Below, piece after piece: positions 7,672 to 29,938 of a DNA stretch of 64,000 nucleotides (position 1 is the stretch's first letter; every line of letters begins with the position of its first letter). The notes below the pieces were generated by a model. That model was not told where the DNA came from. It ran no database searches and saw nothing but the letters and a program-made list of their open reading frames with translations. The position numbers were made by a program, and so were the translations under genes. Origin of the DNA: Chryseolinea lacunae (GTDB lineage: Bacteria > Bacteroidota > Bacteroidia > Cytophagales > Cyclobacteriaceae); NCBI RefSeq assembly GCF_016735595.1, contig NZ_JAERRB010000001.1, forward strand, positions 992,001-1,056,000, given 5' to 3'.

Positions 7672-8532
7672 ATGCAAAAGCAAGGCAAACCCAAACCTCT
7701 CCGCAAGCCACAGGCTCAACCCAGACCTGGCCATCAGGCCAGCATGAAACCGGTGCCCGATTCGATGCCCCGAAAATTCAGACAAGGAAAATTGGCCGGC
7801 AAGGTAGCGCTCATCACCGGTGGCGACAGCGGCATTGGCCGCGCCGTAGCAATGCTCTTTGCACAGGAAGGGGCGCGCGTAGCCATTGCCTATCTGAACG
7901 AACATGCCGACGCACGCGAAACCAAACGTCAGGTGGAAGTCCACACAGAATGCCTGCTCATTGCCGGCGATTTGCGTAAGGAAACGCATTGCAAAAAAGT
8001 GGTCGCCGAAACTGTGAAACGATTCGACAAAATTGACATACTGGTTAACAATGCGGCATTGCATTATGAAAAACAGAAGCTCGAAGAAATTTCGTCCAAA
8101 CAATTGATCAACACGTTTTCATCAAACATCTTCCCCTACTTCTGGGTCACGCAAGCGGCGTTGCCCCACATGCGCAAAGGCAGCAGCATCGTGAACACAT
8201 CATCGGTCACGGCTTACCGCGGAAGCGACGCGCTCATTGATTATGCATCCACCAAAGGTGCCATCGTTTCGTTCACACGAAGCCTTTCATCAAACCTGGT
8301 GAAGCGTGGCATCCGGGTAAACGGTGTTGCACCTGGCCCCATCTGGACGCCACTGATTGCCTCGTCGTTCAAACCCAAAAAGATCGCGAAGTTTGGAAGC
8401 GATGTTCCCATGGAACGCGCCGGCCAACCGGCCGAAATCGCTCCCTCCTACCTCTTCCTCGCCTGCGAAGACTCGGCATACATGACCGGACAATTTCTTC
8501 ATCCCAATGGCGGCGAAATTGTGAATGGCTAA
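7672..8532 (+). CDS. SDR family oxidoreductase (YghA/general stress-type)
   Basis: A 286-residue SDR with an N-terminal extension of about 40 residues rich in Pro, Gln and Lys ahead of the Rossmann fold, as in the glucose/ribitol dehydrogenase-like (YghA, GsiB-neighbour) subgroup. Motifs: TGGDSGIG (NAD(P) binding), VNNAA, the catalytic Ser in NTSSVTAY, YASTKGA (YxxxK), and VAPGPIWTPL. Stress-related SDRs of this group reduce aldehydes or ketones with NADPH, but the substrate here is unknown. It lies 33 nt after the DUF748 gene on the same strand. Confidence 0.9.
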   Translation: MQKQGKPKPLRKPQAQPRPGHQASMKPVPDSMPRKFRQGKLAGKVALITGGDSGIGRAVAMLFAQEGARVAIAYLNEHADARETKRQVEVHTECLLIAGDLRKETHCKKVVAETVKRFDKIDILVNNAALHYEKQKLEEISSKQLINTFSSNIFPYFWVTQAALPHMRKGSSIVNTSSVTAYRGSDALIDYASTKGAIVSFTRSLSSNLVKRGIRVNGVAPGPIWTPLIASSFKPKKIAKFGSDVPMERAGQPAEIAPSYLFLACEDSAYMTGQFLHPNGGEIVNG

Positions 8533-14051: not shown

Positions 14052-14099
14052 AGGATGAATTTAGAATCAGTTTTTAGTTCGCAAGGTTATGCTGTCGAC

Positions 14100-16460
14100 T
14101 TATTGTTCCTTCAAACATTTTGTAGGATTGACCCGGGCCGCTTTCATCGCCTGCACACCCACCGTGAGCCAGGCAATGCAAAGCACCATCACACCGGCCG
14201 ACACAAAATACCACACGCTCAACGTTGTGCGATAAGCAAAACCTTTCAACCAAGTGTTTGCCATAAAAAAGCTTATCGGCAGTGCGATCACCACCGAAGT
14301 GAGTACAATCTTTGTAAAGTCTTTCGACAACAACATAACGATGCCCGTCACGCTGGAACCCAATACCTTTCGAATGCCAATCTCTTTCACCCGACGCTCC
14401 GCAGTGAACGTCACCAGCCCAAACAGACCCAGGCAGGAAATGAGAATGGCAAGTGCCGCAAAATATTTCGACAGCGTGGCCACCCGCTGCTCTGACGCAT
14501 ACAGCTTTTGATAGTCTTCGTCCACAAAGCTGAATTCGAACGTGAAGCCAGGGTTGATGCGCTGATGAATCGCTTCAAGTCCTTTTAACGCCTCCTTTTC
14601 TTTTGCGGCGTCAACTTTGATCATAACATTCCACGTGCCGCCCGGCGCGACGCGCAGGAAAAGTGGTTTCACATTCACGTGCAACGATTCAAAATTAAAG
14701 TCCTTCACCACGCCGACAATTTCCATTGGATCGCCCCACAACTTCACGGTTTGACCAACCGGATTCTGCAGCCCCATGAACCGGATCGCTGCTTCATTGA
14801 AAATGATGCGCGCCGTGTCGTTAAAATTTTTGGAGAAAAAACGACCCTCGGCCATGGTAAGACCCATGGTCTCCATCATGCCATAATTCACCGTCATGTT
14901 TTCAAATTCCGTCTTGTCGTCGGGGTTTCGGGTGGGCCATTCCACGCCATACGTTCCGCTGTTGTGGCCCATCAGGTTGTGGCCAATGCTGGATGCGTTA
15001 ATTACGCCGGGAACATTTTTCACTTCCGTCAGAAACGTTTCAAGCGTGTTGTCATCATAAAGCGAACCGGTGCGTGTTATGTTAATGATGTTGTCTTTGC
15101 TATAGCCCAGGTCTCTGCTTTGCACATATTCAATTTGTTTGTAGACTACCACAACCGACACGATAAAAATGATGGAGAGCGAAAACTGAAAAACCACAAG
15201 GCCCGTGCGTGCCCATTGTTCGCCCAGCGACGACACCATTTTTCCCTTCAATACCAGCGCCGGGTTGAAGCCCGAAAGATAGATGGCCGGATAACTTCCC
15301 GCCAGCAGCCCCGCAAACAACGCAATGCCCAACAGCGAAAGAACCAACGGTACATCAAACTGAAGGACAATATGTTTTGCCGTGATGATGTTAAACTGTG
15401 GCAACAACAGGTCCACCAACAACACCGCCAGCAGCAACGAAAGCAAGCTCATCAATATAGATTCGCCAAGATATTGCATCACCAGCACGTTGCGTCCCGC
15501 GCCGACGGCCTTTTTAACGCCCACTTCCTTGATGCGGCGTGAAGCTTTGGCCGTTGACAAGTTCATGAAGTTGATGCAGGCAATCACGAGAATAAAGATG
15601 GCAATGATGGAAAATAATTTCACATAGGTTATTCTCCCCCCGGCCTGCACACCGTTTTCATACTTTCCATAGAGATACACATCCCGGAACGGAACCAGGA
15701 ACGGTGTGCGGTGTGTGATTTTCTTCTCTGTCTTTTTCGAAATGTAGTCTGCAAACTTGGCGTTGAAGGCATTCACGTCTGCGCCTTTTTTCAGCAGCAC
15801 ATAGCCAAACGTTCCCGTGTTTCCCCATTCGCGAACCCATTCGTTGTTGTCTCTGAATTTCTCGAACGGAATTATATACTCCATCTGGAGTGTTGAGTTT
15901 GCAGGCATCTTTTTAAAAACTCCCGTCACCAGGTAGGTAGCGTCGTGATCATACAGAATCGACTTGCCCACCACGTTGTCGGTAGTATTGAAGAGTTGAA
16001 CGGCGAGCGCGTCGCTAATCACAATGGAATTTTTGTCAACAAGCACCTGCCCTGCATCGCCCTGCAGCAACGGAAAGGAAAACATTTTGAAGATGTCTTT
16101 TCCGGCGAAGCCACCCTCCACCTGTATGGATCGTTCACCCACGGTGAGCAAGGAGCGATTCGACGACGTGAGGTTAACGGCATACTCCACTTCGGGCATG
16201 TCCTGCGGAATGGTCTCCCCCAACGAACCAGACGTGGTGTAGGATGTCCAGATACCTTCCGACTTCACGCGATTTTCAATCACATGATATAGCCGGTCCG
16301 ATTTTTCATGAAAGGCATTCATGGCCCATTCGTCTTTCACCCACAGATAGATCAGCACGGTGCACGTCAATCCTGTGGAAAGGCCAATAAGGTTTATGAA
16401 GAATGTATTTTTAAAACGTTTGAAGTTCCGGTATATGAGAAGTAGACTGTGCTTTATCAT
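14100..16460 (-). CDS. MacB/FtsX-type ABC transporter permease, second gene of the trio
   Basis: A 786-residue paralogue of its neighbours. Predicted helices lie at about residues 20-42, 284-303, 345-365, 385-405, 430-450, 670-690, 725-742 and 755-775, with periplasmic domains after the first and fifth. Motifs: INFMNLSTAKASRRIKEVG and ERRVKEIGIRKVLGSS (coupling helices), NPTKCLKEQ at the C-terminus. It starts 61 nt after the stop of the first gene of the trio and ends 48 nt before the third, with no promoter or terminator seen in either gap. Substrate unknown; partner ATPase must be encoded elsewhere. Confidence 0.9.
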   Translation of the reverse strand: MIKHSLLLIYRNFKRFKNTFFINLIGLSTGLTCTVLIYLWVKDEWAMNAFHEKSDRLYHVIENRVKSEGIWTSYTTSGSLGETIPQDMPEVEYAVNLTSSNRSLLTVGERSIQVEGGFAGKDIFKMFSFPLLQGDAGQVLVDKNSIVISDALAVQLFNTTDNVVGKSILYDHDATYLVTGVFKKMPANSTLQMEYIIPFEKFRDNNEWVREWGNTGTFGYVLLKKGADVNAFNAKFADYISKKTEKKITHRTPFLVPFRDVYLYGKYENGVQAGGRITYVKLFSIIAIFILVIACINFMNLSTAKASRRIKEVGVKKAVGAGRNVLVMQYLGESILMSLLSLLLAVLLVDLLLPQFNIITAKHIVLQFDVPLVLSLLGIALFAGLLAGSYPAIYLSGFNPALVLKGKMVSSLGEQWARTGLVVFQFSLSIIFIVSVVVVYKQIEYVQSRDLGYSKDNIINITRTGSLYDDNTLETFLTEVKNVPGVINASSIGHNLMGHNSGTYGVEWPTRNPDDKTEFENMTVNYGMMETMGLTMAEGRFFSKNFNDTARIIFNEAAIRFMGLQNPVGQTVKLWGDPMEIVGVVKDFNFESLHVNVKPLFLRVAPGGTWNVMIKVDAAKEKEALKGLEAIHQRINPGFTFEFSFVDEDYQKLYASEQRVATLSKYFAALAILISCLGLFGLVTFTAERRVKEIGIRKVLGSSVTGIVMLLSKDFTKIVLTSVVIALPISFFMANTWLKGFAYRTTLSVWYFVSAGVMVLCIAWLTVGVQAMKAARVNPTKCLKEQ

Positions 16461-16521
16461 GCGATTCAGTATTTAAAATCCGTAATGATGAAATGTGTAC
16501 GCGTTGCTTTGATGAACGCCA

Positions 16522-18894
16522 TTATTGTTCTTTCAGACAATTCACGGGATTGATACGTGCAGCTTTAAAAGCTTGCGCGCTCACCGTGAGCCACGCCACA
16601 CCCAACGCCAGCGCACCGGCACCAATGAAATACCACCACTTCAGTTCAATGCGATAGGCGAATTCATTGAGCCAGTAGTTTGCCAGCAGGTAGCTCAACG
16701 GCAACCCGATAATGATAGACAGCAACACAATCTTTGTGAAGTCGGACGTGAGCAAGTAGATAATGTTCGCCTCGCTGGAACCCAACACTTTCCGGATCCC
16801 CATTTCCTTACGACGACGTTCGGCGGTGAATGTGGCAAGTCCAAACAACCCGAGACAGGAAATGAGCACCGCCAGGCCCGCGAAATAGCGCGACAAAATC
16901 GACACGCGCTTTTCAGCCACATAATGCACCTGATAGTCCTGGTCGAGAAATTTATAGTCGAATGAAAATCCAGGATTGAATGTCGCATAGAATTTTGAAA
17001 GTCGCGACAGCGCTTCCTGCGTGTTCCCGTTTTCCAGCTTCACCATGATGCGTAAATTTTCTTCAGGGTTATAGCGAAACAGCAAAGGCTTCACGTTTTC
17101 ATGCAACGACTCGAAATGAAAATTCTTCACCACACCAATGATCTGCATTTTCTTTCCCCACATCTCGATGTCCTTGCCCACAGGATCGTTCAGCCCCATC
17201 ACATCGATGGCGGCTTCGTTGAAGATGATCTTGGAGCGTTCGTCGCCAAAGCGTTCGGAGAACGAGCGACCGGCAACAACGGTCACGCCCAGCGTTTCCA
17301 GAAGATCGTAGTTCGCGCTCACGTTTTCGAACGGGATGATGTCGGCCGGATTTTTTCCCTCCCATTGCAGCCCGGTGGTATAGTTTTCGGAACGCACAAT
17401 GCCATGCGATGTGCTGGACGCATTTGCCACACCGGGTATTTTCTTTACCTCCGCCAAAAAGGTCGACAGACTCTCGTTCACTTTGCCTTCGGGCTTGAAG
17501 AAGATCAGATTGTTTTTATCGTATCCCAGATTTTTATTTTGAACGAATTCAATCTGCTTATACACCACCAACACGGCAACAATGAAAATGACGGATAGTG
17601 AGAATTGAAAAACTACCAGTCCCCGGCGTGCCCACAACTCGCCGACCGACGTGTTCAGCTTTCCCTTCAACACTGTGGCGGGATTGAAACCGGAGAGGTA
17701 CAAGGCAGGATAACTGCCGGCCAACAATCCGGTCATCACAGCGATGCCCGTCAGGCCGCCCACCATGGTCCAGTTAAAACTCAGCGACAGTTGTTTGCCC
17801 GTCATGTTGTTAAACAACGGCAGCAACAAATCGACCGCAAGAATTGAAACTGCGAGGGCCAGAAATGTCATAAGCATAGACTCTGACAAATGTTGAATGA
17901 TCAGCGTTTTGCGGGCCGCACCAATGGCCTTTCTCACGCCTACTTCCTTGATGCGCGTGGCCGCTTGTGCCGTTGACAAGTTCATGAAATTGATGCACGC
18001 AATAACCAGAATAAAAATAGCGATGATCGAAAACAATCGCACATACTCGATGCGACCACCGGCCTCCACACCACCTTCATAGCGACCGTGCAGATAACGA
18101 TCGGAGTAGCGTTTCAAAAACAACGTGACATGCGACTCGGGATCTTTCTTTTTTATGAAGCCTGCTATCTTTTCGCTTACGGCTTCGTTATGTGTGCCTT
18201 CCTTCAGCAACGCATAGGTGTTGCTGCCGAAGTTTCCCCACGACAATCCATTTTCGCCCACCACGTCCTTGTAAATTTCAAACGATAGGGCAAATTCAAA
18301 TTTATCAGAAGCATTCAACGGCAACGTTTCAAAGACACCGCTCACGGTGAATTGTTTCTTCATGCCCATCAGCTCCCAGTCAATCGTCTTTCCCACCGCA
18401 CCCGCGATGCTGCCGAATAATCTCTTTGCCAGAACATCAGAAACAACTACGGCGCTTTTGTCGGCGAGAACCGTGTTCCCGTCACCTTGCAGGAACGTAT
18501 AGGAAAATAATTTGAAATAGTTCACGCTCACAAACTGGCCCACGGCGCTCACGTGCTTTGAGCCAGTGCCAATAGAAAACTCATACGGATCTTTGAAGCC
18601 AACTGAAGAGGCGATGTATTCCATCTCCGGAATTTCCTGCTCCAGAGCGGCACCCAGAATCGCCGGCGTAGACGACGATGTTTCAATGCCTTCGGCCATT
18701 TTCTTGAACGTCATCACCGAAAATATGCGGTCATCGTTTGCCCGGAACTTGTCGAATGCCAGCTCGTCGCTTACCCAAAGAAAGATGAGAATGGCGCACG
18801 CCAGCCCTGCCGACAGACCAATGAGATTGATGAAGAACGTGCTTCTGAAGCGTTTGAAATTACGGAAGACGAGGAGCAGATTGTGTCGTATCAT
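16522..18894 (-). CDS. MacB/FtsX-type ABC transporter permease, first gene of the trio
   Basis: A 790-residue permease with the same architecture: first helix about 20-42, INFMNLSTAQAATRIKEVG and ERRRKEMGIRKVLGSS coupling motifs, and the NPVNCLKEQ C-terminus. It is the promoter-proximal gene of the three-permease run and is divergent from the sigma-54 activator gene at 19135. A TGGCACG -24 element lies about 64 nt upstream of its ATG, so the trio may be the direct target of that activator. This control is inferred from location and motif. Substrate unknown. Confidence 0.9.
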   Translation of the reverse strand: MIRHNLLLVFRNFKRFRSTFFINLIGLSAGLACAILIFLWVSDELAFDKFRANDDRIFSVMTFKKMAEGIETSSSTPAILGAALEQEIPEMEYIASSVGFKDPYEFSIGTGSKHVSAVGQFVSVNYFKLFSYTFLQGDGNTVLADKSAVVVSDVLAKRLFGSIAGAVGKTIDWELMGMKKQFTVSGVFETLPLNASDKFEFALSFEIYKDVVGENGLSWGNFGSNTYALLKEGTHNEAVSEKIAGFIKKKDPESHVTLFLKRYSDRYLHGRYEGGVEAGGRIEYVRLFSIIAIFILVIACINFMNLSTAQAATRIKEVGVRKAIGAARKTLIIQHLSESMLMTFLALAVSILAVDLLLPLFNNMTGKQLSLSFNWTMVGGLTGIAVMTGLLAGSYPALYLSGFNPATVLKGKLNTSVGELWARRGLVVFQFSLSVIFIVAVLVVYKQIEFVQNKNLGYDKNNLIFFKPEGKVNESLSTFLAEVKKIPGVANASSTSHGIVRSENYTTGLQWEGKNPADIIPFENVSANYDLLETLGVTVVAGRSFSERFGDERSKIIFNEAAIDVMGLNDPVGKDIEMWGKKMQIIGVVKNFHFESLHENVKPLLFRYNPEENLRIMVKLENGNTQEALSRLSKFYATFNPGFSFDYKFLDQDYQVHYVAEKRVSILSRYFAGLAVLISCLGLFGLATFTAERRRKEMGIRKVLGSSEANIIYLLTSDFTKIVLLSIIIGLPLSYLLANYWLNEFAYRIELKWWYFIGAGALALGVAWLTVSAQAFKAARINPVNCLKEQ

Positions 18895-18958
18895 AAAAAT
18901 GCTTTTGCAGGAAAGTCAACGCCGGCGTGTTCATCCACACCGCGTCGGGGTGATGGTA

Positions 18959-18974
18959 AACACGGGCCGTGCCA
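18959..18974 (-). promoter_or_regulatory. Candidate sigma-54 (-24/-12) promoter for the permease trio
   Basis: On the minus strand the sequence TGGCACGGCCCGTGTT has a perfect TGGCACG -24 element and, at the correct 10-nt distance from GG, a GT in place of the usual GC of the -12 element. It lies 64 nt before the ATG of the first permease and next to a sigma-54 activator gene. The GT at -12 weakens the call. Confidence 0.45.
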
Positions 18975-19134
18975 TGATAATAATGGCGGATTGCGGGCTA
19001 AATTTCAACGTTTTTCTGGCCATCCCTGCATTCACTGCCCATCCATAGAAAAGATTGTGTCCAATTATGGGCACTTTTTATGGTTTTTTGATGACAGGGC
19101 AATAGTTTTATTCTTTCTAGAAGCAGACAAGAGA

Positions 19135-20508
19135 ATGTGTAAATCCGCAGGACGCATATTGCTGGTCGACGACGACGAATTTGTATTGCTGTCTGTTAAA
19201 CTTTTGCTGGAGCCGCATTTTGCCAGCGTGAAAACCACAAACAACCCCGAACGCATCCCGGCCTTGTTCGAACAGGAACAGTTTGATGTGGTGGTGCTCG
19301 ACATGAACTTCCGGCACGGCGACACCACGGGCAACCAGGGTTTGTTCTGGCTCCGAAAAATTCTGAGCCTTCACCCCGACACACAAATTATCCTGCTCAC
19401 GGCCTACGGCGACATCCAACTGGCCGTTGACTCTATTAAAGAGGGCGCATTGGATTTTATTGTGAAGCCCTGGCAAAACGAAAAGCTTCTCACCACCGTG
19501 AAGACGGCCAACGTGGTGAGCCAGGAGAAAAAGAATGTGAAGTTGCTGAAGTCACAACAGAAGTCGCTGGTCTCGGCCTTGCGCCAGGCTCATGAACCGC
19601 TCATTGGAAATTCGCCAGCACTCAACGCCATTCGCAAAACCATCGACAAGGTGGCACCCACCGAAGCCGAAGTGCTCATCCTGGGTCAGAACGGCACGGG
19701 CAAAGAAGTGATTGCCCGCGAAATACACGCGCGCTCCAAACGCGCCGACGGAATTTTTATGGCCGTAGATGTGGGATCGCTCAGCGAATCATTATTCGAA
19801 AGCGAATTGTTCGGCCACCGCAAGGGCGCGTTCACCGACGCCAAAGAAGACCGCATCGGCCGCTTCGAAGCCGCCGCGGGTGGCACGTTGCTGCTCGACG
19901 AAATCGGAAATTTATCATTGCCGCTGCAAGCCAAACTGCTCACCGTCTTGCAACATAAAAAGGTGACCCGTCTCGGCACGCACGAGCCCATCGCCCTCGA
20001 TGTGCGCATCGTCTGCGCCACCAACTGCAACCTGCACGCCATGGTGAGCGACGGAAAATTCCGAGAAGATCTGCTCTATCGTATCAACACCGTGGAGATG
20101 ACCGTGCCACCCCTCCACGATCGTGCAGAAGACATTCCCCTGATCGCGACACATTTTCTGAAAAAGTTTTCGGCAAAATACCAGAAGCCCTATCTCAAAC
20201 TTTCCGAAGCCGCGCTGGCGCAACTGCAAGGCTACCGGTGGCCGGGCAACATCCGTGAACTGCAACATGCCGTGGAGCGCGCCGTCATCATGTGCGAAGG
20301 AGAAGAACTTCTTCCCGACGACTTTGGCCGCGATCCGCAAAAGGTGCAGGGCGAGTTTTCGTTCGAGCGGCTCAACCTCGAACAGCTTGAAGCGTGGGCT
20401 ATCCGAAAAGCCATTGCCAAACATCATGGCAACATCAGCCATGCGGCCGAAGAATTGGGTCTGTCGCGTGGCGCACTATACCGGAGAATTGAAACCTATG
20501 GTATTTAA
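19135..20508 (+). CDS. Sigma-54-dependent response regulator (NtrC family)
   Basis: A 457-residue activator starting at the ATG at 19135 (the frame is open further upstream but only this start gives a normal receiver domain). Receiver domain: acidic DDD at 12-14, phospho-acceptor Asp56, Lys111 in VKPW. AAA+ domain: Walker A GQNGTGKE (184-191), Walker B LLLDEI (252-257). The sigma-54-contacting loop reads GAFTDA (231-236) instead of GAFTGA. The C-terminus carries a Fis-type HTH (NISHAAEELGLSRGALYRRI). On phosphorylation it should activate sigma-54 promoters. The kinase gene overlaps its 3' end by 11 nt, and the permease trio is divergent. The rpoN gene is not in the window. Confidence 0.93.
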   Translation: MCKSAGRILLVDDDEFVLLSVKLLLEPHFASVKTTNNPERIPALFEQEQFDVVVLDMNFRHGDTTGNQGLFWLRKILSLHPDTQIILLTAYGDIQLAVDSIKEGALDFIVKPWQNEKLLTTVKTANVVSQEKKNVKLLKSQQKSLVSALRQAHEPLIGNSPALNAIRKTIDKVAPTEAEVLILGQNGTGKEVIAREIHARSKRADGIFMAVDVGSLSESLFESELFGHRKGAFTDAKEDRIGRFEAAAGGTLLLDEIGNLSLPLQAKLLTVLQHKKVTRLGTHEPIALDVRIVCATNCNLHAMVSDGKFREDLLYRINTVEMTVPPLHDRAEDIPLIATHFLKKFSAKYQKPYLKLSEAALAQLQGYRWPGNIRELQHAVERAVIMCEGEELLPDDFGRDPQKVQGEFSFERLNLEQLEAWAIRKAIAKHHGNISHAAEELGLSRGALYRRIETYGI

Positions 20509-21835
20509 AAAATTCAGGATCAACATCGTTCTTCGTGTGGCGCTGCTCACCGCGTGCATTTTGTTGCTGGCGTGGTGCGTGGTGCAGCAGCGATACCTGC
20601 GCAGTGCTTACCTCGGCGTCGCGCTTGTCGTGATCCTGGTGGAATTGGTGTGGTACATCGACCGCTTCAACCGCGACATGAAGGTGTTCATGACCAGCCT
20701 GCTGCAACGCGACTTCACCACCCATTTTCAATCGACCGGACGCGGCAAAAGCCAGGACGATTTGTATGAAACATTAAATCAGATATCCGAAGCCTTCAAA
20801 AAGATCAGCACCGAACGCGAAACGCAATTCCGCTACCTCGAAATGCTGGTGGAACACGTGCGCGTCAGCATCCTCAGCATCGACGCCGACGGGAATGTGC
20901 ATCTCGCTAACCAGGCGCTAAAAAATCTGCTACAGAAAAACATTCTCCCCAACATCAAAGCGCTGGAATTGTTTGGAGACGCGTTTGTGAACACGCTGCG
21001 CGAAATTCGCTCGGGTGAAACCTTGCTGGTGAAACTGCGGGTGAATCAGGAATTGCTTCAATTGTCGCTGCACGCCGCAGAGTTCAAACTGCAGGGGCGC
21101 TACTACAAACTCATCTCCATGCAAAACATCCGCAGCGAACTCGACGCGCGCGAAGTAGAAGCCTGGCAAAAGCTCATCCGCGTGCTGGGTCACGAAATCA
21201 TGAACTCGGTGTCGCCCATCACATCGCTCAGCGCCACCCTGCACGGAATGGTCACACAAAATCAACAGGTTCTGGAAATACCCGGAAACACCTTGTTCGA
21301 ATCGTTAGACAAAGGGTTGGAAGCCATCAAAATCCGTAGCGAAGGGCTTTACAATTTCACACAAACCTATCGCAAGCTCACAGGCATTCCCAAACACGCG
21401 CCACTGCAAACCGATCTCAAAAAAATTGTGGCCCGTGTGCAATTGCTGCTGCAATCCAAACTGGCTGACAACGGCGTGACGCTCTCCGTACACCAGGTCG
21501 ATGTCAGCGTTTTTGTTGACCCCGAACTAATGGAACACGTGCTCATCAATCTTATCCTGAACGCCATCGACGCTTTGGCCAACACAAAAAATCCCGTCAT
21601 CGAAATCAAAACATCACAACACCAAAAAGGAAACACCTGCATCCACGTGATCGACAACGGCGAAGGCATGGACGACGCCACGCTCGAAAAAATATTCATC
21701 CCCTTCTTCACCACGCGCAAGCATGGATCGGGCATCGGCCTGGCCATCACCAAACAAATCCTACAGCTGCACCGGGCCGACATTCAGGTGATCAGCGAAG
21801 CCGGCAACGGCACGGAATTTAAGATTCTTTTATAA
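20498..21835 (+). CDS. Membrane sensor histidine kinase (NtrB/NtrY-like) paired with the NtrC regulator
   Basis: 445 residues starting at the ATG at 20498, which overlaps the end of the regulator gene by 11 nt, a sign of translational coupling. Two transmembrane helices near the N-terminus (about 12-30 and 37-54) are separated by only a few residues, so there is almost no periplasmic sensor; a cytoplasmic PAS-like region follows (about 112-215). The H-box is LIRVLGHEIMNSVSPI with His232, followed by N-box (LINLILNAIDAL), G1 (DNGEGMD), F-box (FIPFFTTRKHGSG) and G2 (GIGLAI). It should phosphorylate Asp56 of the upstream-encoded regulator. The signal is unknown; the layout suggests an intracellular or membrane cue. 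Confidence 0.93.
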   Translation: MVFKKFRINIVLRVALLTACILLLAWCVVQQRYLRSAYLGVALVVILVELVWYIDRFNRDMKVFMTSLLQRDFTTHFQSTGRGKSQDDLYETLNQISEAFKKISTERETQFRYLEMLVEHVRVSILSIDADGNVHLANQALKNLLQKNILPNIKALELFGDAFVNTLREIRSGETLLVKLRVNQELLQLSLHAAEFKLQGRYYKLISMQNIRSELDAREVEAWQKLIRVLGHEIMNSVSPITSLSATLHGMVTQNQQVLEIPGNTLFESLDKGLEAIKIRSEGLYNFTQTYRKLTGIPKHAPLQTDLKKIVARVQLLLQSKLADNGVTLSVHQVDVSVFVDPELMEHVLINLILNAIDALANTKNPVIEIKTSQHQKGNTCIHVIDNGEGMDDATLEKIFIPFFTTRKHGSGIGLAITKQILQLHRADIQVISEAGNGTEFKILL

Positions 21836-21844
21836 CGGAATTCA

Positions 21845-22285
21845 CTACACCACTTTTTCCCACGTAACTGTAAACACGGTTTCGCCGGTTTGGGTTGGAA
21901 CAGGAGGCGTGCTCACCTGCAAAATATTGTCCTTCACCGTAGCGAAGCGAACCTGTTCCATTCCCAGCCAGTTGGGAAAGAGGCTGCCTTCCACCACGTG
22001 CACAATCTCGCCGGGCTGTCGTTCAAAATATCTTCCGAAGTAGGCGAGGTAGCTGAGAAAGGCGCCCTTCGCCTCCTCAGCCGTCCCGCTGTTAATACCA
22101 TCGGATGCAAATCGTTTTCGATCGTTGCGCATCAATTGCGCATTCATGTTGCCTGCTTCGTCATACATCAACACCCCCGTAGCGTCTTTTCCAAAGTAGT
22201 CAATCAGTTCGCCATGTTCTCCTGTGAACGTCCACGAGATCAGCTTCCAGGTGCCCACCACCTTGTCTTTCACCGACTCTCGCAT
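21845..22285 (-). CDS. Lipocalin-like domain protein, downstream of the PKS
   Basis: A 146-residue protein of the bacterial lipocalin-like group: it opens with VVGTWKLISWTF (the GxW-type start of the barrel), has GVLMYDEAGNMNAQLM and ends FTVTWEKVV. Small proteins of this type appear as single-domain binders or, in some secondary-metabolite clusters, as possible cyclases or ligand carriers. Its ATG lies 3 nt after the PKS stop on the same strand, so the two are almost surely cotranscribed. A role in handling the polyketide product is inferred only from this. It converges on the histidine kinase gene with a 9-nt gap. Confidence 0.8.
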   Translation of the reverse strand: MRESVKDKVVGTWKLISWTFTGEHGELIDYFGKDATGVLMYDEAGNMNAQLMRNDRKRFASDGINSGTAEEAKGAFLSYLAYFGRYFERQPGEIVHVVEGSLFPNWLGMEQVRFATVKDNILQVSTPPVPTQTGETVFTVTWEKVV

Positions 22286-22288
22286 GGC

Positions 22289-25200
22289 CTATGCTGGTTG
22301 GTTGATGGTTTGCAACGAACCTTGATGCGCCAACGTTTTTTGAATCGTGGCCGTAACAAACGCAGCGTCCTGCTCAACGTAACGGTGTCCTCCGGGACGC
22401 GACACCAGGGCAAACGACTTGGTCGTCTCCTGCTCCCACTGTTCCACTTGCTGATGTGTTACACGCGGGTCGCTCTGACCGTGAAAGGCGACAATCGAAA
22501 CGGGCAATGCATCTTCACGCACATAGTGATAGTTGTTGAGCAACTCCAGGTCTGCGCGCAGAATGCGGATGAGTATTTGTTGCAACTCCAGGTCCTCCAC
22601 ATTTTCGATGGCCACGTGCGGGAACATTTCCGCCAATTCGCCATCCGACAACTGGTGATTCACCGTGCGTTTGTCGTACGAGAAAAGACTGGGTGTGGAT
22701 GACACAAAAAGTTTTTCGGGCAGGGCAAGTTTATTTTTGCGCAGGGCGCGGATGGTTTCGAATGCCACCAGTCCGCCCATGCTATGACCAAAGAAGGCAA
22801 AGGGCTTATCCATCAGTGCAGTCAACGCGGGCAACACACCTTGCAACAGATCTTCCAATCTGCGGTAAGGCTGCTCCGCCCAACGCTTGCCGCGACCGGG
22901 CAATTCCAGCGCTACAATTTCGAATGTGTTGTCAAATTGTTCTTCCCATCCATGATAAAGCGACGCACTGCCGCCAGCGTCGTGGAAACAAATCAACCGG
23001 CGTGTGGCCGAAGGGTTTGGCCGTGTCACTACGAACCACTCGTGTTCCACGGCAGGCTTGGGTTGGGCTACCGCGCTGTGTTTTACCAGGTCTTCGATCA
23101 GGCGCTGCTCCGCGGTCTGGGTACGCAGGTTGCCAAAGAGGAACGTGGCATATTCGCGGATGCTGGGGTGCGACCAGAACATGGCCACAGACAGTTTCAG
23201 TTCCAGGCTCTTCTCCAACAAGTTTCTCAATTGGATGGCCATGAGCGAATCCACACCAAGTCCTTTAAAGGTCATGGTGTTGCCGATGCGCGATGCAGGC
23301 ATCTTGATAATCTTGCTCACGTGGCGCGTGATCAGTTGTTCGAGTGCGTCCTTGCGTTCGCGTTCGTCGGCCAGCAGCGTGTAGGTTTCCAGGAAGCTGG
23401 TTTCTTTTTGTGACACCACGTCCTTGGTCTCCATGAGGCCTTTGAAATAGTTGGTACGTGCCAGGGCCGAGTAGTACGATCCCATTTGCGCCGCGTCAAT
23501 TTTCATGATGCCGATTTGTGTGAGGTCGTGTGCGGCAATGGTGTCGTAGACCTCCATGGCATCCTGCATCACGATGGGTTCGAAGCCTTCGGCGCGTGCA
23601 TATTTTTCAAGCTCGGTTTCGTTGGCCACCATGCCCACGTCTTTGATCACACCCCAGTTGATGCTTTGCGCCGTAAGGCCGCTTTGTCTGCGGCGATGTG
23701 CCAGCACATCCAGGAAACTGTTCGCTGCCACATAGCTTGCCTGACCGCTGAGGCCGATGAGCGAAGAAGCCGACGAGAACAGGATGAAACATTCCAACGG
23801 CAGGTGCTGTGTGAGCATGTGCAAATTCCAGGCTCCTTTCACTTTTGGCGCCAGGGTTTCCATAAATTCAATCTCTGTTATTTTGTCGATGGCTTTCGCC
23901 TCGATAACACCGGCGGCATGAATCACACCCTTCAGCGGCGGCATGGTGTCGCCTATATTTTCGATAACCGATTTCAACTGGTCGGTGTGGCTGGTGTCGG
24001 CCTGGAATATTTTAAAATGACAACCTTGCGATTCGTAAGCAAGCATTTTGTTCATTACCGAATCAGACGCCGCACCGGTGCGACTCAGCAACGCGAAGTG
24101 ACGGGCACCGCGTTTGATCATCCACTCAATGAACACAAAGCCAAGTCCTCTGAAACCCGTCACAAGGTATGTTCCGTTTTCCGAGAAGCGTGCCGGCGAC
24201 TGTTGTGTGGCTGGCGTCATGGTTCCGGTAAAGGTTCTCAGGCGGGGCACATATTGCGTGCGGCCACGCAGGGCGATTTCGCGCTCTTCGGTAAGGTCTT
24301 CCTGCATCAATTGAAGAACCTGATCCAGCTCTTCCATCATCGGGTTAAAGCTGAGGTCGTAGCGCTTGCCTTCATACTGCGGCAATTCGTTGCTGATCAC
24401 GCGCACCAGACCCGAAAGGGCACCGTGCACCACTTGCGTGTGATGCTTGTCGTTGCCCACCATCTGCATGCCGTTGGTGACCACGGCCAGCTTCGGCGTT
24501 TTGGACACAATGCGCGACGTGATCTCCTGCATCGTATAAAGCAAACTGATGCTGCCGTATACCTGTTCGCCTTCCAACTCGTCGGCGGTTAATTCACGCT
24601 CACTTGAAGGATAGTAGATACCTCCCATGTGTAGGATACCGTCTATGGCCTGACCGTCGTGCAAAAGATCTTTCACCAGGCGTGCGTAGTCTTCTTTGTC
24701 GGCATAGTTCAGTTTGTATTCAACACTACCCGTTTCGTCTTGCGCTTTGCCAAAGGCGCGATCGGGTGTTACGTGAATGAGGTGCAAGCCTGCGGGGTCG
24801 ATCTTTTCAAGAAGGATGCGGCTCAGTCCATACACATCGCCAAACACAATCCAGCTTTCGGGTTTGCTTTTCACCGCCATTGGTTTTTTCGCGAAGGTGC
24901 GTTCCGTCCACGCGATGTCATAGAGCCAGTTCTTCACTTTCTCGTTCTCGCGGCGGATGAGGTCTGCATCAAGAATTTTTCCTTGCAGTCCCGACACTTT
25001 CAGCACCACACTGTCTTGAGCACCAAAAATCACGAGGTCGGCTTTCACGGTCAATGTGCCACGCTCGTTGTCGATCTTGGCAGGATAAAGCCGCGCTTCA
25101 CCACGAACCGGCAAAGAATAGTCAACCTTGCCCAACAATTGCACCTCGTCTACCGAAGTGAGAAACGTGGTGCGATCGGACGACGCGTTCTGCTGTTGCG

Positions 25201-28200
25201 CCACCGTGAGGAACAACGGTTGGAAGCAAGCATCCAGCAACGCGGGATGCAAGGCATAGCGATGGCCATTCTGACGAATGCTGTCTTCGGGCGTCACAAC
25301 AAACGACACATAGGTGTCTTCGCCATGCTGTTCCGTCGCCAATTCGGTCAGGCCTTGAAAATATTTTCCGTATTGCAGACCCAGACTGGTCAGTGATTGG
25401 TAATAAGCTTTTATGTCTACGGGTGCTGCCGCATCGGTGAAGTGCACCAAGCGGTCTTTGTTCACCAGCGATCCGGTATACATGGTCAACTCGCCATCGG
25501 CCAGCAATGTCCATCCCGATTTATCGCCTTGTGGTGCTTTGGCAAAGAACTTAAAAACGTTGTTGCCGTTTTCGTCTTCCACCATGCGCAGCTGCACGGT
25601 TTTGCTCTCCCCTTCTTCGAGGCTCACCGACTGAATGAAATTGAGCTTGCGAATAACAGGAATGCCGGCGCCGTGAATTTCCGATGCCGCTTCCAGAATA
25701 ATTTCCACATAGCCGGCGCCTGGGAACACAGGGGTAGCGTTCACCTGGTGGTCGGCCAGATACGGATATTTGCCCAGGCTGACCTGTGTCTCCCAATACC
25801 GAAGATGATCCAGACCGGCCAGCGTTAAATGTTGGCCCAGCAAGGGGTAGCGAAGGCCGGAGTTTTTGTCGCGTTGTTCGGCCGAGCGATCTTCCAGCGC
25901 ATAGGTGTCGCGTTGGAATGGGTAGTGCGGCAGCGTGATGTCGGGAGCGGTTTCGGTTCCATAGAAATCACTCCAGTTCACGGTAAAGCCTTTTGTATAA
26001 AGCTCACCCAGGTTTTTGACTAACGTTTCCTGCTCGGGTTTTTCGCGTAGCAACGAGGGCACCGTGATCACTTTTGCTTTTCCAAATTCTGCACATTCGT
26101 TCACCGCGTTGGTCAGCACAGGGTGTGGGCTGCATTCAATGAACACCACATGCTGGTCTTCCATCAGTTGCTGCATCACGGCCGAGAACTGCACAGTGTT
26201 GCGCAGGTTGGTCACCCAATAGTCGGCGTTCATTTCCTGGCCTTCCATGCGGCGCGCCTGCACCGTGGAGTATACCGGAATTTCACCGGCCATCGGCTTC
26301 ACAAAATGCAATGCCTGACGCAGGTCTTCTTTCAACGGATCCATCTGCTGACTGTGTGATGCCACGTCAACTTTCACCATGCGACCAAAGAGCCCTTTGC
26401 TTTCAAGTTCGTGCAAAAGTTGTTCGATCGACTGCTTGTCGCCGGCCACTACGGTTGACTTGGGACTATTGGACACGGCCACCGACAATGCGGGGTAGCG
26501 TTGAATCATTTCTTCGGCCGATGCTTTATTCAGTTCGGTCACCGCCATGGCACCCCCTTGTCCACTCACTTTTTTCATGAGACGGCTGCGGGTGCAGATA
26601 ATGTTAGCAGCATCATCAAGGCTGATGGTTCCGGCAACACATGCTGCGGCCACCTCCCCCATGCTGTGACCAACCACAGCCTGCGGGCGAATGCCCCACG
26701 ACATCCACATTTTTGCCAAAGCAATCTGCACGGCGCACAACGCAGGTTGAATCACATTGATTTCATTCAGGCGGCTCTTCTCGGCCGTGGCCTGCAACTG
26801 TTCAATGAGCGACCAGTCGGTGAATTTGGCAAATGCCTTGTCGCACGCCTCAATGGTCTTGCGGAACACGGGTTCCTTCTCCATAAGTTCTTTGGCCATG
26901 CCAAGCCACTGCGATCCCTGACCCGGAAACACAAACACCACTTTGTCTTCAGCCGTGAGCGCTTGTGCACCGGTGAGTTCTTGTTCCTCCTTCAGGAAGT
27001 CGTCGAGCGCTGTGAGCACTTCTTCCTTTGTATCGCCCGAAATGTTGATGCGCAGATCGAAGTTGGGTTTCAGCAACGCCGTGGCCACACACAGATCGTG
27101 GAAGGCTTCGTTGGAAAGTTCTTTTATTTTATCGCTATATTCCTTCGCCAGGTTCTTCAGCGCTTTGGGCGACTTGGCCGACAGCGGAAGGCTGTAGCGG
27201 ATGTTTTCAAGATCGATAACTTTCGCCGAAGGTTCGTCTCTGTATTCTTCAATGATGGTGTGGGCATTAGTGCCGCCCCAGCCAAACGAGTTCACACCGG
27301 CTTTCAGTTTCTCGCCGTTCTTCACGGGCCATTGACCCAATTCGTTTTGAACCTGCAACTTCAGCTCGTCGAACGCGATGGCCGGGTTGGGGTTCTTGAA
27401 GTTCAAACTTGGCGGCAACATTTTGTTTTGAATCGACAACACCACCTTGATAAGTCCGGCCATGCCGGCGGCGGCTTCGAGGTGACCGATGTTGGTTTTC
27501 ACCGAACCCACGCGAAGTTTGTTTTTGCGATTGGATCTGAAAAATTCTCCCAGCGCGCGCGTCTCGGTGGGGTCGCCCAGCTTGGTGCCCGTGCCGTGCG
27601 CTTCTATATAATGTATGTCTTCCGGAGCAATGCCCGAACCGGCATAGGCCTCCGTGAGCACTTGCTTTTGACCGGCGATGCTGGTGGCGGGCAAGTTGAC
27701 GTTGAAACCATTGTTGTTCATGGCCGAGCCTTTCACTACAGCGTAGATCTTGTTGCCATCGCGCTCGGCATCGGACAGGCGCTTCAACAGCAACACTCCG
27801 GCACCTTCGCCACGCACAAAACCATCGGCGCCTTCATCGAAGGTGCTGCACTTTCCTTTTTTAGATAGTCCGCCAAACTTCGAGAGCAAAACGTTTTGAT
27901 CGGGATCGAGAATGTGGTTGATGCCGGCGGCGACAGCAAGTTCGGTACTGCCATCCCACAGACTTTGACACGCCAGATGCAAGGCCACAAGCGACGATGA
28001 GCAGCCGGTGTCCATCACCAGACTGGGACCTGTGAACCCAAACGCAAACGACACGCGGTTCGCGATGATGTTTGAGGATTGGCCCACGGCAGAGTGCGAT
28101 GTGACCGGCGCATTTTTATGTTTACGCAGATGTTCGAAGTCGTTCCAGATGTTGCCCACATAAACGCCAACCTTTCCACCCTGCACCTGCTGGTATGGGA

Positions 28201-28552
28201 TGGTTGAGTTCTCGATGGCCTGCCACACCAATTCAAGCATCAGTTTTTGCGAGGGGTTCATTTCGGCTGCTTCGGCCGGCGAGATATTGAAGAACAACGA
28301 ATCAAAGTCATGAATATCTTCCAACATCGACGCGTGGCGTTGGTGGGACTTACCTTGTGCGCTGGGATCCGGATCGTAGTAGTCGTCGTTGTTCCAGCGC
28401 GACTTTGGTATTTCGGTGATGGTATCCCTACCTTCACAAAGAAGTTTCCAAAAGGCTTGCAAGGTTTCAGCTTGGGGGAAACGGCACGACATGCCGACGA
28501 TGGCGATGGGGTCTTTCATAACTTGGGGTTGATGGTGATGAGGTGTCTTCAT
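22289..28552 (-). CDS. Single-gene type I polyketide synthase, KS-AT-DH-KR-ACP-TE
   Basis: A 2087-residue megasynthase with one full module and its own release domain. KS (about 13-440): Cys184 in DTGCSSS, His319 in EAHGTGT, His357 in NIGHLEA. AT (about 538-860): Ser630 in GHSMGE, with VASH at 730-733. DH (about 900-1200): His935, where the motif is HQVNATPVFP (Ala for the usual Gly), and Asp1107/Gln1111 in LLDACFQ. KR structural and catalytic parts (about 1230-1690): TGFRGLG cofactor site, Ser1594, Tyr1607. ACP: Ser1769 in GVDSLMAI. TE (about 1845-2075): Ser1924 in GHSMGG, Asp2028, His2056, closest to stand-alone type II TEs. There is no ER, methyltransferase or loading domain. The order up to ACP is that of iterative aromatic or partially reducing PKSs such as NcsB and MdpB. 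Iteration and product are inferred or unknown. A divergent PPTase gene supplies the activating enzyme. Confidence 0.95.
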   Translation of the reverse strand: MKTPHHHQPQVMKDPIAIVGMSCRFPQAETLQAFWKLLCEGRDTITEIPKSRWNNDDYYDPDPSAQGKSHQRHASMLEDIHDFDSLFFNISPAEAAEMNPSQKLMLELVWQAIENSTIPYQQVQGGKVGVYVGNIWNDFEHLRKHKNAPVTSHSAVGQSSNIIANRVSFAFGFTGPSLVMDTGCSSSLVALHLACQSLWDGSTELAVAAGINHILDPDQNVLLSKFGGLSKKGKCSTFDEGADGFVRGEGAGVLLLKRLSDAERDGNKIYAVVKGSAMNNNGFNVNLPATSIAGQKQVLTEAYAGSGIAPEDIHYIEAHGTGTKLGDPTETRALGEFFRSNRKNKLRVGSVKTNIGHLEAAAGMAGLIKVVLSIQNKMLPPSLNFKNPNPAIAFDELKLQVQNELGQWPVKNGEKLKAGVNSFGWGGTNAHTIIEEYRDEPSAKVIDLENIRYSLPLSAKSPKALKNLAKEYSDKIKELSNEAFHDLCVATALLKPNFDLRINISGDTKEEVLTALDDFLKEEQELTGAQALTAEDKVVFVFPGQGSQWLGMAKELMEKEPVFRKTIEACDKAFAKFTDWSLIEQLQATAEKSRLNEINVIQPALCAVQIALAKMWMSWGIRPQAVVGHSMGEVAAACVAGTISLDDAANIICTRSRLMKKVSGQGGAMAVTELNKASAEEMIQRYPALSVAVSNSPKSTVVAGDKQSIEQLLHELESKGLFGRMVKVDVASHSQQMDPLKEDLRQALHFVKPMAGEIPVYSTVQARRMEGQEMNADYWVTNLRNTVQFSAVMQQLMEDQHVVFIECSPHPVLTNAVNECAEFGKAKVITVPSLLREKPEQETLVKNLGELYTKGFTVNWSDFYGTETAPDITLPHYPFQRDTYALEDRSAEQRDKNSGLRYPLLGQHLTLAGLDHLRYWETQVSLGKYPYLADHQVNATPVFPGAGYVEIILEAASEIHGAGIPVIRKLNFIQSVSLEEGESKTVQLRMVEDENGNNVFKFFAKAPQGDKSGWTLLADGELTMYTGSLVNKDRLVHFTDAAAPVDIKAYYQSLTSLGLQYGKYFQGLTELATEQHGEDTYVSFVVTPEDSIRQNGHRYALHPALLDACFQPLFLTVAQQQNASSDRTTFLTSVDEVQLLGKVDYSLPVRGEARLYPAKIDNERGTLTVKADLVIFGAQDSVVLKVSGLQGKILDADLIRRENEKVKNWLYDIAWTERTFAKKPMAVKSKPESWIVFGDVYGLSRILLEKIDPAGLHLIHVTPDRAFGKAQDETGSVEYKLNYADKEDYARLVKDLLHDGQAIDGILHMGGIYYPSSERELTADELEGEQVYGSISLLYTMQEITSRIVSKTPKLAVVTNGMQMVGNDKHHTQVVHGALSGLVRVISNELPQYEGKRYDLSFNPMMEELDQVLQLMQEDLTEEREIALRGRTQYVPRLRTFTGTMTPATQQSPARFSENGTYLVTGFRGLGFVFIEWMIKRGARHFALLSRTGAASDSVMNKMLAYESQGCHFKIFQADTSHTDQLKSVIENIGDTMPPLKGVIHAAGVIEAKAIDKITEIEFMETLAPKVKGAWNLHMLTQHLPLECFILFSSASSLIGLSGQASYVAANSFLDVLAHRRRQSGLTAQSINWGVIKDVGMVANETELEKYARAEGFEPIVMQDAMEVYDTIAAHDLTQIGIMKIDAAQMGSYYSALARTNYFKGLMETKDVVSQKETSFLETYTLLADERERKDALEQLITRHVSKIIKMPASRIGNTMTFKGLGVDSLMAIQLRNLLEKSLELKLSVAMFWSHPSIREYATFLFGNLRTQTAEQRLIEDLVKHSAVAQPKPAVEHEWFVVTRPNPSATRRLICFHDAGGSASLYHGWEEQFDNTFEIVALELPGRGKRWAEQPYRRLEDLLQGVLPALTALMDKPFAFFGHSMGGLVAFETIRALRKNKLALPEKLFVSSTPSLFSYDKRTVNHQLSDGELAEMFPHVAIENVEDLELQQILIRILRADLELLNNYHYVREDALPVSIVAFHGQSDPRVTHQQVEQWEQETTKSFALVSRPGGHRYVEQDAAFVTATIQKTLAHQGSLQTINQPA

Positions 28553-28634
28553 ATAAAATATCTTGCTATCGTGAAATAATAATCGAATGTACTTACACCT
28601 ATGACATCAGTTTTTTTAACAACCGGCGAAACAT

Positions 28635-28729
28635 TACCCCCAAACCTTTTTCAGTGAATTGGCTGCTTCATAAAATATTTTTAATCGTACTCCCCGAATC
28701 CGGGGGTACATCAATGACCACCCCAAACC
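28635..28729. promoter_or_regulatory. Possible control region between PKS and PPTase, with palindrome and C-run repeats
   Basis: The 204-nt divergent gap contains an imperfect palindrome at 28687-28709 (GTACTCCCCG then AATC then CGGGGGTAC) and two copies of ACCCC(C)AAACC at 28635-28646 and 28719-28729. The palindrome is related in layout to those at 31445-31466 and 48913-48932. The TACYCCC half-sites look like NarL/LuxR-type heptamers (TACYYMT). A shared regulator site for both divergent genes is an inference. Confidence 0.4.
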
Positions 28730-28756
28730 ATTGCATAACCCGTTCGTGTTAACATC

Positions 28757-29398
28757 ATGATAACTGCTGCCATCTTCGATTCGAGAGTGTATTCTGAATT
28801 ACCACGGGTTCAAACGCTTAAGGAAAAACTCCATCCCATGTTGTATCCTGAAACTGAATACGCGTTTGAGAATGAGTTACTTATTAGCCTTGTCTCGCGA
28901 TTGCTCTTGCAGCGGCTTTTGGAAAAAAAAGGTATTTCAATTCAAAAGTTACATATTCACAAAGGACGCTATGGCAAGCCGCTGCTTACTTCTTCCCTGG
29001 AATTCTCAATCGCGCATGCCGCAGGTGTGGCGATATGCCTGGTTTCGGATGAGGGCGCCGTGGGGGTTGACGTGGAACTGATCCGCAGCATTCCTGTTGA
29101 CGAGTACAAGACAAGCTTCACGCACGACGAGTGGCACCTGATACAGGAAGATCCAACCCCCCAATCATTTTTCAACTTGTGGACACGCAAAGAGAGCTTG
29201 TTGAAGCTGCATGGCTTCGGGATGCAGGTGCCCTTGCGCCAGGTGGATGTGCTCCACCTCACGGGCAGTATTTATGCGGAAGACATTATATATAGAGGCG
29301 TGTTCGTGCGCCTTGACATCGAGGACTACGTATGTCACGCCTGTGTCCCGGAAAAAGACAGTATTCCGCGCATCGAGATTGTGGCTGTAGAATTATAA
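28757..29398 (+). CDS. Sfp-type 4'-phosphopantetheinyl transferase
   Basis: This 213-residue enzyme transfers the phosphopantetheine arm of coenzyme A to a carrier-protein serine. The family motifs are in order: GRYGKPLL (about 70-77), FSIAHAAG (83-90), the Mg-binding GVDVE (Asp105, Glu107) and the WTRKESLLK helix (142-150). The gene is divergent from the PKS and shares its 204-nt upstream region, so the natural partner is Ser1769 of the PKS ACP, though it may also serve other carrier proteins. The last 40 residues after the KESLLK helix are ordinary for the family. Confidence 0.93.
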   Translation: MITAAIFDSRVYSELPRVQTLKEKLHPMLYPETEYAFENELLISLVSRLLLQRLLEKKGISIQKLHIHKGRYGKPLLTSSLEFSIAHAAGVAICLVSDEGAVGVDVELIRSIPVDEYKTSFTHDEWHLIQEDPTPQSFFNLWTRKESLLKLHGFGMQVPLRQVDVLHLTGSIYAEDIIYRGVFVRLDIEDYVCHACVPEKDSIPRIEIVAVEL

Positions 29399-29551: not shown

Positions 29552-29938
29552 ATGCAGTCTTTATTTAAAGCAAAGAACATTGAGATCAGTTACGATCCAC
29601 AGAACAAGTATCTCTATTGTAACTGGCTTGGATTTCAAAACAAGGAATCCATTGTAAAATCCGGTGGCATTATCCTGGAGCTGTTGCAGCAGAAAGGGGT
29701 AAGCAAAGTTCTGAATGACAATTCCCAGGTCACAGGCCCCTGGCAGGAAGCAGCCGACTGGACAGCGTCGGTGTGGTTTCCACAAATGATCGAAAGTGGT
29801 CTACAGCATTTCGCCTGGGTTTTCTCTCCCAACATCTTTTCCGAACTGTCGGCAAAAAAAGCCATGCCGTCGTCCGGCATTGTCAAGTCTTTTAACTCGT
29901 ACAACGACGCTTTGAGCTGGCTGTTGCTACAAAAGTAG
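29552..29938 (+). CDS. SpoIIAA/STAS-like small cytosolic protein of unknown role
   Basis: A 128-residue protein starting at the ATG at 29552. The pattern IEISYDPQNKYLYCNWLGFQ, then a helix with SGGIILELLQQKGVSKVLNDNSQVTG, and a later FSYNDALSWLL-like end (residues FNSYNDALSWLL) resembles the SpoIIAA-like/STAS-like fold seen in many Bacteroidota proteins. There are no catalytic motifs. The gene stands alone 153 nt after the PPTase. No function can be assigned. Confidence 0.7.
   Translation: MQSLFKAKNIEISYDPQNKYLYCNWLGFQNKESIVKSGGIILELLQQKGVSKVLNDNSQVTGPWQEAADWTASVWFPQMIESGLQHFAWVFSPNIFSELSAKKAMPSSGIVKSFNSYNDALSWLLLQK

Follow-up and report, generated by a model that had tools for sequence, protein, structure and literature searches.

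A single-gene type I polyketide synthase (PKS) of Chryseolinea lacunae belongs to a family in which a small lipocalin gene follows the synthase at every examined locus of a thioesterase-bearing member. Because PKS and lipocalin are same-strand neighbors in all 36 such loci, their adjacency is not a matter of chance. The cassette is this pair plus two frequent companions, a 4′-phosphopantetheinyl transferase (PPTase) and a STAS-like protein. Our best explanation, to which we give an even chance, is a self-contained cassette in which one synthase repeatedly extends and partially reduces a chain, a built-in thioesterase (TE) releases it, and the lipocalin binds or cyclizes it.

Results

Organization of the locus

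The stretch of DNA analyzed (64 kb; hereafter, the window) contains one PKS gene and three small companion genes.

21845..22285, minus strand: Lipocalin_5 protein, 146 aa (Pfam PF13924 and a predicted β-barrel; downstream of the PKS on the same strand in 36/36 loci)
22289..28552, minus strand: type I PKS, 2087 aa, KS-AT-DH-KR-ACP-TE (ORF, Pfam and catalytic residues; two congeners have syntenic copies at 77% identity)
28757..29398, plus strand, divergent from the PKS: PPTase, 213 aa (Pfam; homolog beside 21/36 family PKSs)
29552..29938 (ORF listed from 29513), plus strand: STAS/SpoIIAA-like protein, 128 aa from the ATG (predicted fold; strong homolog beside 26/36 PKSs)

The first-pass annotation had placed the PKS, the PPTase and a lipocalin-like gene 3 nt away from the PKS; these ORF positions hold, with 22286–22288 separating the PKS stop from the lipocalin gene. 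Its coordinates for the locus left out the lipocalin, and its gene list the STAS-like gene. The lipocalin scores 111.9 bits against PF13924 (Lipocalin_5; curated cut-off 25) and belongs to that family. The PPTase scores 48 bits against PF01648 (ACPS; cut-off 25), which places it in the superfamily. No signal peptide was seen by eye on the lipocalin. Sigma-70-like promoter sites in the window were not above chance (4 found, 5.5 expected), and the Bacteroidota-like promoter pattern TTTG-TAnnTTTG had a single match there, outside the cassette and at chance level. Terminator-like sites in the window numbered 20 against 10.4 expected, the majority of them inside genes.

Domains and catalytic residues of the synthase

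The synthase is one polypeptide, a type I PKS with a fused release domain, encoded on the minus strand as follows.

27233..28513, minus strand: KS, residues 14–440 (Pfam 14–385), active site DTGCSSS, C184/H319/H357
25988..26938, minus strand: AT, residues 539–855, motifs GHSMG and VASH, S630/H733
24968..25846, minus strand: DH, residues 903–1195, dyad H935/D1107
24215..24931, minus strand: structural half of KR, residues 1208–1446 (approximate limits), with PF21394 and NF047870 matches within
23642..24175, minus strand: catalytic KR, residues 1460–1637, tetrad K1570/S1594/Y1607/N1611, atypical loop TGFRGLGF
23138..23335, minus strand: ACP, residues 1740–1805, S1769
22364..22999, minus strand: TE, residues 1852–2063, type II-like triad S1924/D2028/H2056

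Pfam matches and active-site residues agree with the order KS-AT-DH-KR-ACP-TE read at first pass, and with the absence of a loading module and an ER: Pfam found no ER family in the window PKS and no second domain set able to form a loading module. The residues checked in KS, AT, ACP and TE are conserved in 36/36 family members. The AT motifs are mixed (GHSMG, VASH and INVIQPA); VASH and INVIQPA are methylmalonyl-type motifs.

Distribution of the family

The PKS is single-copy in the window genome. Six genomes of the genus were searched, and the same three (the window's, G001 and G002) carry both the PKS and a high-scoring lipocalin. The copies in the two congeners retain the adjoining two-component and permease-like genes in synteny. 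Across the GTDB family, 68 of 390 genomes match the PKS at E ≤ 1e-150. We examined all 37 whose best match reached at least 1073 bits; the remaining 31 score below 900 bits. These 37 genomes comprise 32 TE-bearing members with readable loci, four with TE-less synthases, and one (G008) in which the PKS gene is broken by stops at a contig end, with the downstream side off the contig. The TE-less synthases (L090, L094, L095 and L096; 1872–1892 aa) gave no TE match when aligned and lack a lipocalin; they are distant on the tree and served as the outgroup.

The working set thus consists of 36 TE-bearing PKSs: that of the window, 31 more from the 390 family genomes, three (G436, G479 and G577) from a further two families of the order, and one flavobacterial member (L043, from Sinomicrobium). 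Two duplicates were removed: Chryseotalea L041, equal to L072, and the Chryseolinea serpens record L042, equal to L017. A phylum-wide sample of 395 genomes gave three matches at E ≤ 1e-280, the window's and two outside this count (ORFs of 1914 and 2193 aa).

Conservation of the partner genes

The lipocalin gene lies downstream of the PKS on the same strand in 36/36 loci and never more than 390 nt away; in 28 of them it overlaps the PKS or lies within 30 nt of it. The overlaps in L017 and L075 resemble over-long ORF starts. A strong STAS-like homolog adjoins the cassette in 26/36, downstream of the lipocalin in 23 (that of L111 ended by the contig) and beyond the PPTase in the three of Chryseolinea. 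Five loci (L086, L087, L097, L099 and L103) have only a weak, opposite-strand STAS-like homolog, and in another five (L043, L079, L113, L101 and L102) the gene is missing from the ORF list, L101 and L102 offering less than 700 nt for the search. The genome of L079 (G295) has an 80-residue STAS-like match. A PPTase homolog stands beside 21/36 synthases, weakly matching in L091–L093 (18–29 bits), and in some of the remaining 15 loci the available DNA was short. When ORFs from 40 loci were clustered, no gene beyond these four occurred in more than eight; the most frequent extra cluster, present in eight, resembles, as judged by eye, a TonB-dependent (SusC-type) receptor. The trio of PKS, lipocalin and PPTase proposed at first pass therefore survives as a pair: the PKS–lipocalin association is constant, the PPTase is present in only 21/36 loci, and the STAS-like gene is kept better.

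Genome-wide searches used lipocalin and STAS-like profiles made from cassette members, so that high scores at cassettes are expected. Of the 390 family genomes, 32 scored 187.8–229.3 bits with the lipocalin profile, always beside the PKS, and the next place scored 121.5 bits; no family genome without the PKS carries a lipocalin of cassette grade. The STAS-like profile reached at least 186 bits in 25 genomes, 24 of them PKS carriers. The exception, G290, keeps the STAS-like gene amid what are probably the PKS-flanking gene families of group g42 (judged from gene starts), but PKS and lipocalin are missing and look to have been lost jointly. The constant adjacency, the lack of PKS-free genomes with a cassette lipocalin, and G290 together rule out a chance neighbor.

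Reductive domains vary while the lipocalin is constant

The first-pass description of the synthase as partially reducing fits the window genome, where the KR tetrad is complete, but it does not extend to the whole family: 10/36 members lack a KR with a complete tetrad. The KR is deleted in seven (PKS of 1559–1587 aa; Pfam, run on three of them, found no KR), and its tyrosine is lost in three (L113, L084 and L085). The K-S-Y-N tetrad is complete in the other 26 of the 29 KR-bearing members. The DH dyad is intact in 26/26 KR-complete members and broken in 9/10 of those with a KR broken or absent, L113 being the KR-broken member that does not follow the pattern. In some relatives, the synthase is probably non-reducing.

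On the KS-AT tree, KR loss requires four changes and DH loss three. The linkage between the two losses is not significant over these 3–4 independent pairs (same direction in 2/3; sign test, p = 0.5). A single KR loss uniting all ten KR-broken members in one clade was rejected (p = 5.6e-79). A clade of the seven KR-deleted members was not (p = 0.215), which implies one or two deletions. Six of the rows form a KR-deleted clade, which the tree places, with moderate support (SH-aLRT 87), as the sister group of the Chryseolinea synthases.

The lipocalin is kept where KR and DH are gone. Most likely, therefore, its target is some feature found in both reduced and non-reduced products, and not a product of reduction.

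A model for the cassette

In our preferred model of a self-contained, iterating synthase, the PPTase would arm the ACP of the single-module enzyme, which would prime and extend its own chain over several rounds. The KR and DH would reduce and dehydrate some of the β-keto groups, as their intact residues and their joint loss in relatives suggest. The C-terminal type II-like TE would then free a short, partly unsaturated chain. The spacing of the genes suggests that the lipocalin is probably made from the PKS transcript, and the protein would bind or cyclize the chain during its growth or after release. For the STAS-like protein, a role in regulation, scaffolding or protein interaction is probable. 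Several observations count against this model. The KR glycine loop is short in 29/29 KR-bearing members, and the link between KR and DH loss comes from few events. The invariant residues of the lipocalin are mostly common to five plasmid PF13924 proteins, four of which lie beside unrelated genes. The four TE-less synthases, of nearly equal score, do without a lipocalin.

A stronger claim, which we put forward tentatively and would sooner expect to fail than to hold, is that the lipocalin forms an indispensable part of a new PKS family, as a subunit with a catalytic or templating role. It would capture the chain at the TE and set its folding and closure, serving reduced and non-reduced chains alike as KR and DH are gained or lost in evolution. 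The readings considered here and below overlap, and the likelihoods we attach to them do not sum to one.

Structures of the lipocalin and the STAS-like protein

The predicted structure of the lipocalin (pLDDT 94.5) matches lipocalin-family structures. The top entry among the best 50 of 921 PDB matches is a lipocalin family protein of Bacteroides ovatus (E = 4.3e-5, TM 0.53). Residues G11, W13, R56, Y82, P104, N105 and R113 are invariant in the cassette and also present in 5/5 plasmid PF13924 proteins, and W106 in 4/5, which indicates a pocket of the general-family type. W18 and F138 seem more cassette-specific. This comparison was based on the five plasmid proteins; slices at the weaker paralogs L012–L015 were set aside (L013 has stops). 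A general tie between Lipocalin_5 proteins and PKSs was considered but not supported: of 101 matched plasmid records, five places were inspected, one beside a PKS and four not.

A fold like that of ligand-binding lipocalins would also suit a carrier that stands outside synthesis and protects the producer from, or transports, a bioactive product, and the gene does follow the PKS whatever the reductive state. We think this rather unlikely, given the lack of a visible signal peptide and of any neighbor cluster, beyond the four genes, in more than 8/40 loci.

The model of the STAS-like protein (pLDDT 95.7) was compared with known structures using Foldseek. SpoIIAA-like proteins matched best (E = 2.9e-4, TM 0.56), and other SpoIIAA/RsbS matches had TM values of 0.62–0.74. 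The window protein matched no Pfam family at E ≤ 1, PF11964 included; PF11964 is matched by 6/29 aligned STAS-like members.

Affinities of the KS and TE domains

In a tree of 32 KSs that includes PikAI and otherwise uncharacterized PKSs, the 14 family KSs sampled (of 36) form one clade with 100% support. The clade is distinct from two KSs of a multi-PKS Nostoc locus and from other Bacteroidota PKSs. Nearest to it are the PikAI KS and one KS from contig C25 of the window genome. The closest solved single KS is likewise the first of PikAI, at 455 bits. Its active site aligns as DSGQSSS, with Gln replacing Cys, and we take it to be a loading-type KS. Such kinship would fit a synthase that primes itself. 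An apparently better match, 7zma (667 bits), was discarded, as its score is the sum over two KS domains (315 and 356 bits).

One objection foreseen at first pass was that the KS might fall in a modular clade with a partner module nearby. The KS forms its own clade, and no second PKS gene lies beside it: a KS search of the window's own genome gave no second KS-bearing place within the window, and no second PKS ORF was found at the fetched family loci (flanks of about 0.5–10 kb, some ended by contig ends). A modular PKS with a missing partner is thus not supported. Further large KS genes do occur on contig C25, so a partner may exist elsewhere in the genome.

The first-pass impression that the TE most resembles stand-alone type II enzymes was borne out by its nearest solved relatives, which are type II thioesterases of that kind (96–120 bits) with Asp and His residues that align with those of the domain. 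A further match to the domain, at 89.9 bits, is the thioesterase of a medium-chain fatty acid synthase (4xjv).

The last match is one of three that would suit a chain elongator like mycocerosic acid synthase (MAS), loaded in trans with an acyl starter and lengthening a lipid, with the lipocalin carrying the fatty substrate or product. MAS is also the top full-length relative of the PKS in the PDB (800.5 bits), and the AT motifs VASH and INVIQPA are of methylmalonyl type. We nevertheless consider an elongator unlikely. The window PKS has no ER, no ligase was recognized by eye among neighbor clusters of at least four loci, and the KS is nearer to the first KS of PikAI than to that of MAS (349 bits).

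Is the KR functional?

In all 29 KR-bearing members the KR glycine loop is one residue short of the canonical TGGxGxLG found in the four outgroup PKSs; the same gap is seen against the EryAI KR. The first-pass annotation did not mention this altered loop. NADPH binding by the KR may therefore be poor. The window KR combines a complete tetrad with an atypical NADPH loop. Between the congeners L016 and L017, dN/dS is 0.056 for KR, 0.057 for TE and 0.018 for KS. When the window is compared with L016, the KR value of 0.115 is the highest of six measurable domains; dS exceeds 1 in this and many other pairs, making the values rough.

If the KR were dead family-wide, the synthase would be non-reducing everywhere, and KR and DH would be scaffold in the course of being shed. 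The short loop in 29/29, the seven deletions and three lost tyrosines spread over four changes on the tree, and the raised value against L016 all point this way. They are opposed by the complete tetrad in 26/29, by the low KR dN/dS between L016 and L017, and by the intact DH dyad in all 26 tetrad-complete members. We judge a family-wide dead KR to be unlikely; the simpler statement that the KR is plainly dead was considered and set aside, as the selection figures conflict (0.056 versus 0.115).

Correlated divergence of the partners

Distances between PKSs correlate with those between lipocalins (r = 0.845, n = 36), between PPTases (r = 0.909, n = 21) and between STAS-like proteins (r = 0.636, n = 31; 0.805, n = 25, when KR-less members are omitted), with 0/2000 permutations as high in each comparison. 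Common descent alone can also produce such congruence. That PKS and lipocalin are adjacent by descent only and functionally unlinked would accord with this congruence and with the syntenic neighborhood within the genus, but is highly improbable, as the pair is kept in 36/36 loci with differing other neighbors, spans one flavobacterium as well as three families of the order, and is jointly absent in G290.

Comparison with known systems

Our search of the open-licence literature by title found no publication on this cassette, on Chryseolinea PKSs, or on PF13924 in polyketide clusters, which is weak evidence of absence. The cassette is apparently undescribed; its enzyme is of a known kind, and its constant partner is unusual. 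Bacteroidota polyketides are, to our knowledge, little explored, and the PKS and lipocalin point to an unstudied natural-product assembly pair. One synthase, the enzyme that activates it, a fused release domain and a constant partner make a minimal cassette, small enough for one-step reconstruction in E. coli. Members with KR and DH complete, KR broken and KR deleted, all with the lipocalin, form a natural series, which offers a direct test of the role of a lipocalin in polyketide assembly; it also informs how synthases shed reductive domains.

MdpB, NcsB and ChlB1 are bacterial iterative aromatic PKSs of the 6-methylsalicylate kind, with the single-module order KS-AT-DH-KR-ACP that the present synthase shares. 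The KR-less members of the present family recall the split between orsellinate and 6-methylsalicylate synthases. We know of no fused TE in NcsB or MdpB, whereas a fused type II-like TE (36/36) and an adjacent lipocalin set the present family apart from these enzymes. In maduropeptin biosynthesis, MdpB acts with a CoA ligase, a methyltransferase and an acyltransferase, MdpB1–B3 (PMC10951976). No such set was seen by eye among the neighbor clusters of the present loci.

Compared with MAS (PDB 9d2y), its top full-length match among solved structures, the present PKS has a TE and no ER, and its KS is nearer to the first KS of PikAI. The closest relatives of the TE are type II thioesterases (RifR; PDB 3qmv/3qmw, labelled Thioesterase); here, the domain is fused to the C terminus of the synthase.

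Fungal PKS clusters contain the lipocalin-type Diels-Alderases Fsa2 and CghA, which were initially seen as binders of hydrophobic chains and later shown to be cyclases (PMC9055775). Lipocalin-family proteins are tied to PKS genes in both settings. The present protein is a predicted single barrel of 146 aa, and neither Fsa2 nor CghA is named in the best 50 of its 921 PDB matches. The domain list KS, AT, DH, KR, ACP and TE is also tabulated for PKS entries of sea urchin, coral and amphioxus (PMC4604110, table). Those proteins are eukaryotic, and in these entries the authors mark at least one domain with an asterisk.

On a Brasilonema plasmid (L119), too, a PKS gene is succeeded after 22 nt by a Lipocalin_5 gene, and next comes a gene for a stand-alone thioesterase. 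Unlike the window PKS, that synthase contains a methyltransferase, shows no KR match, is preceded by an NRPS gene, and has its KS on a distant branch; its pairing with Lipocalin_5 seemingly arose independently of the present cassette.

Neighbors and Variants of the Cassette

Two groups of genes near the window cassette are shared with the two other Chryseolinea genomes that carry a family PKS.

18883-21835 (+), genes for a sigma-54 response regulator and a histidine kinase, adjoining the lipocalin gene
11643-18894 (-), a tandem array of three permease-like genes related to one another (786-802 aa), which by eye resemble FtsX/MacB

The regulator and kinase genes are syntenic in both congeners at 71-84% identity, and the homologues of the permease-like genes are likewise syntenic. 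A homologue of the window sigma-54 response regulator was also found upstream of the PKS at a further locus, L073. At three loci (L091-L093), the STAS-like gene downstream of the lipocalin is doubled in tandem rather than single. The Sinomicrobium locus has an additional open reading frame.

L043 8586-9584, ORF upstream of the KR-less family PKS

The start of its product appears to resemble that of a terpene synthase.

An apparent loss and a case of decay were also seen. At L124 (G290:C296), a STAS-like gene (7802-8257) is kept, the PKS and lipocalin are both absent, and the STAS-like gene sits amid gene families that flank the PKS at other loci. At L125 (G008:C254, 1-5927), a family PKS is broken by stops into several open pieces and adjoined by a divergent PPTase-like ORF; the copy lies where its contig ends and is in decay.

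Related Genes outside the Family

A KS search of the Chryseolinea lacunae genome located a second region of large KS-bearing genes outside the window (G000:C25, about 476000-530000; L018-L020), with open frames of 2054, 3693, and 1855 aa. The region also has a thioesterase-like stretch. In the tree of 32 KSs, the L018 KS is among the non-family KSs nearest to that of the cassette.

A cyanobacterial NRPS-PKS cluster on the Brasilonema plasmid pBOCT1 (L119, 3831-9438) also contains a Lipocalin_5 gene, which starts 22 nt past a methyltransferase-containing PKS gene and is followed by a stand-alone thioesterase gene. This is a second PKS-lipocalin pairing, seemingly independent of the family cassette.
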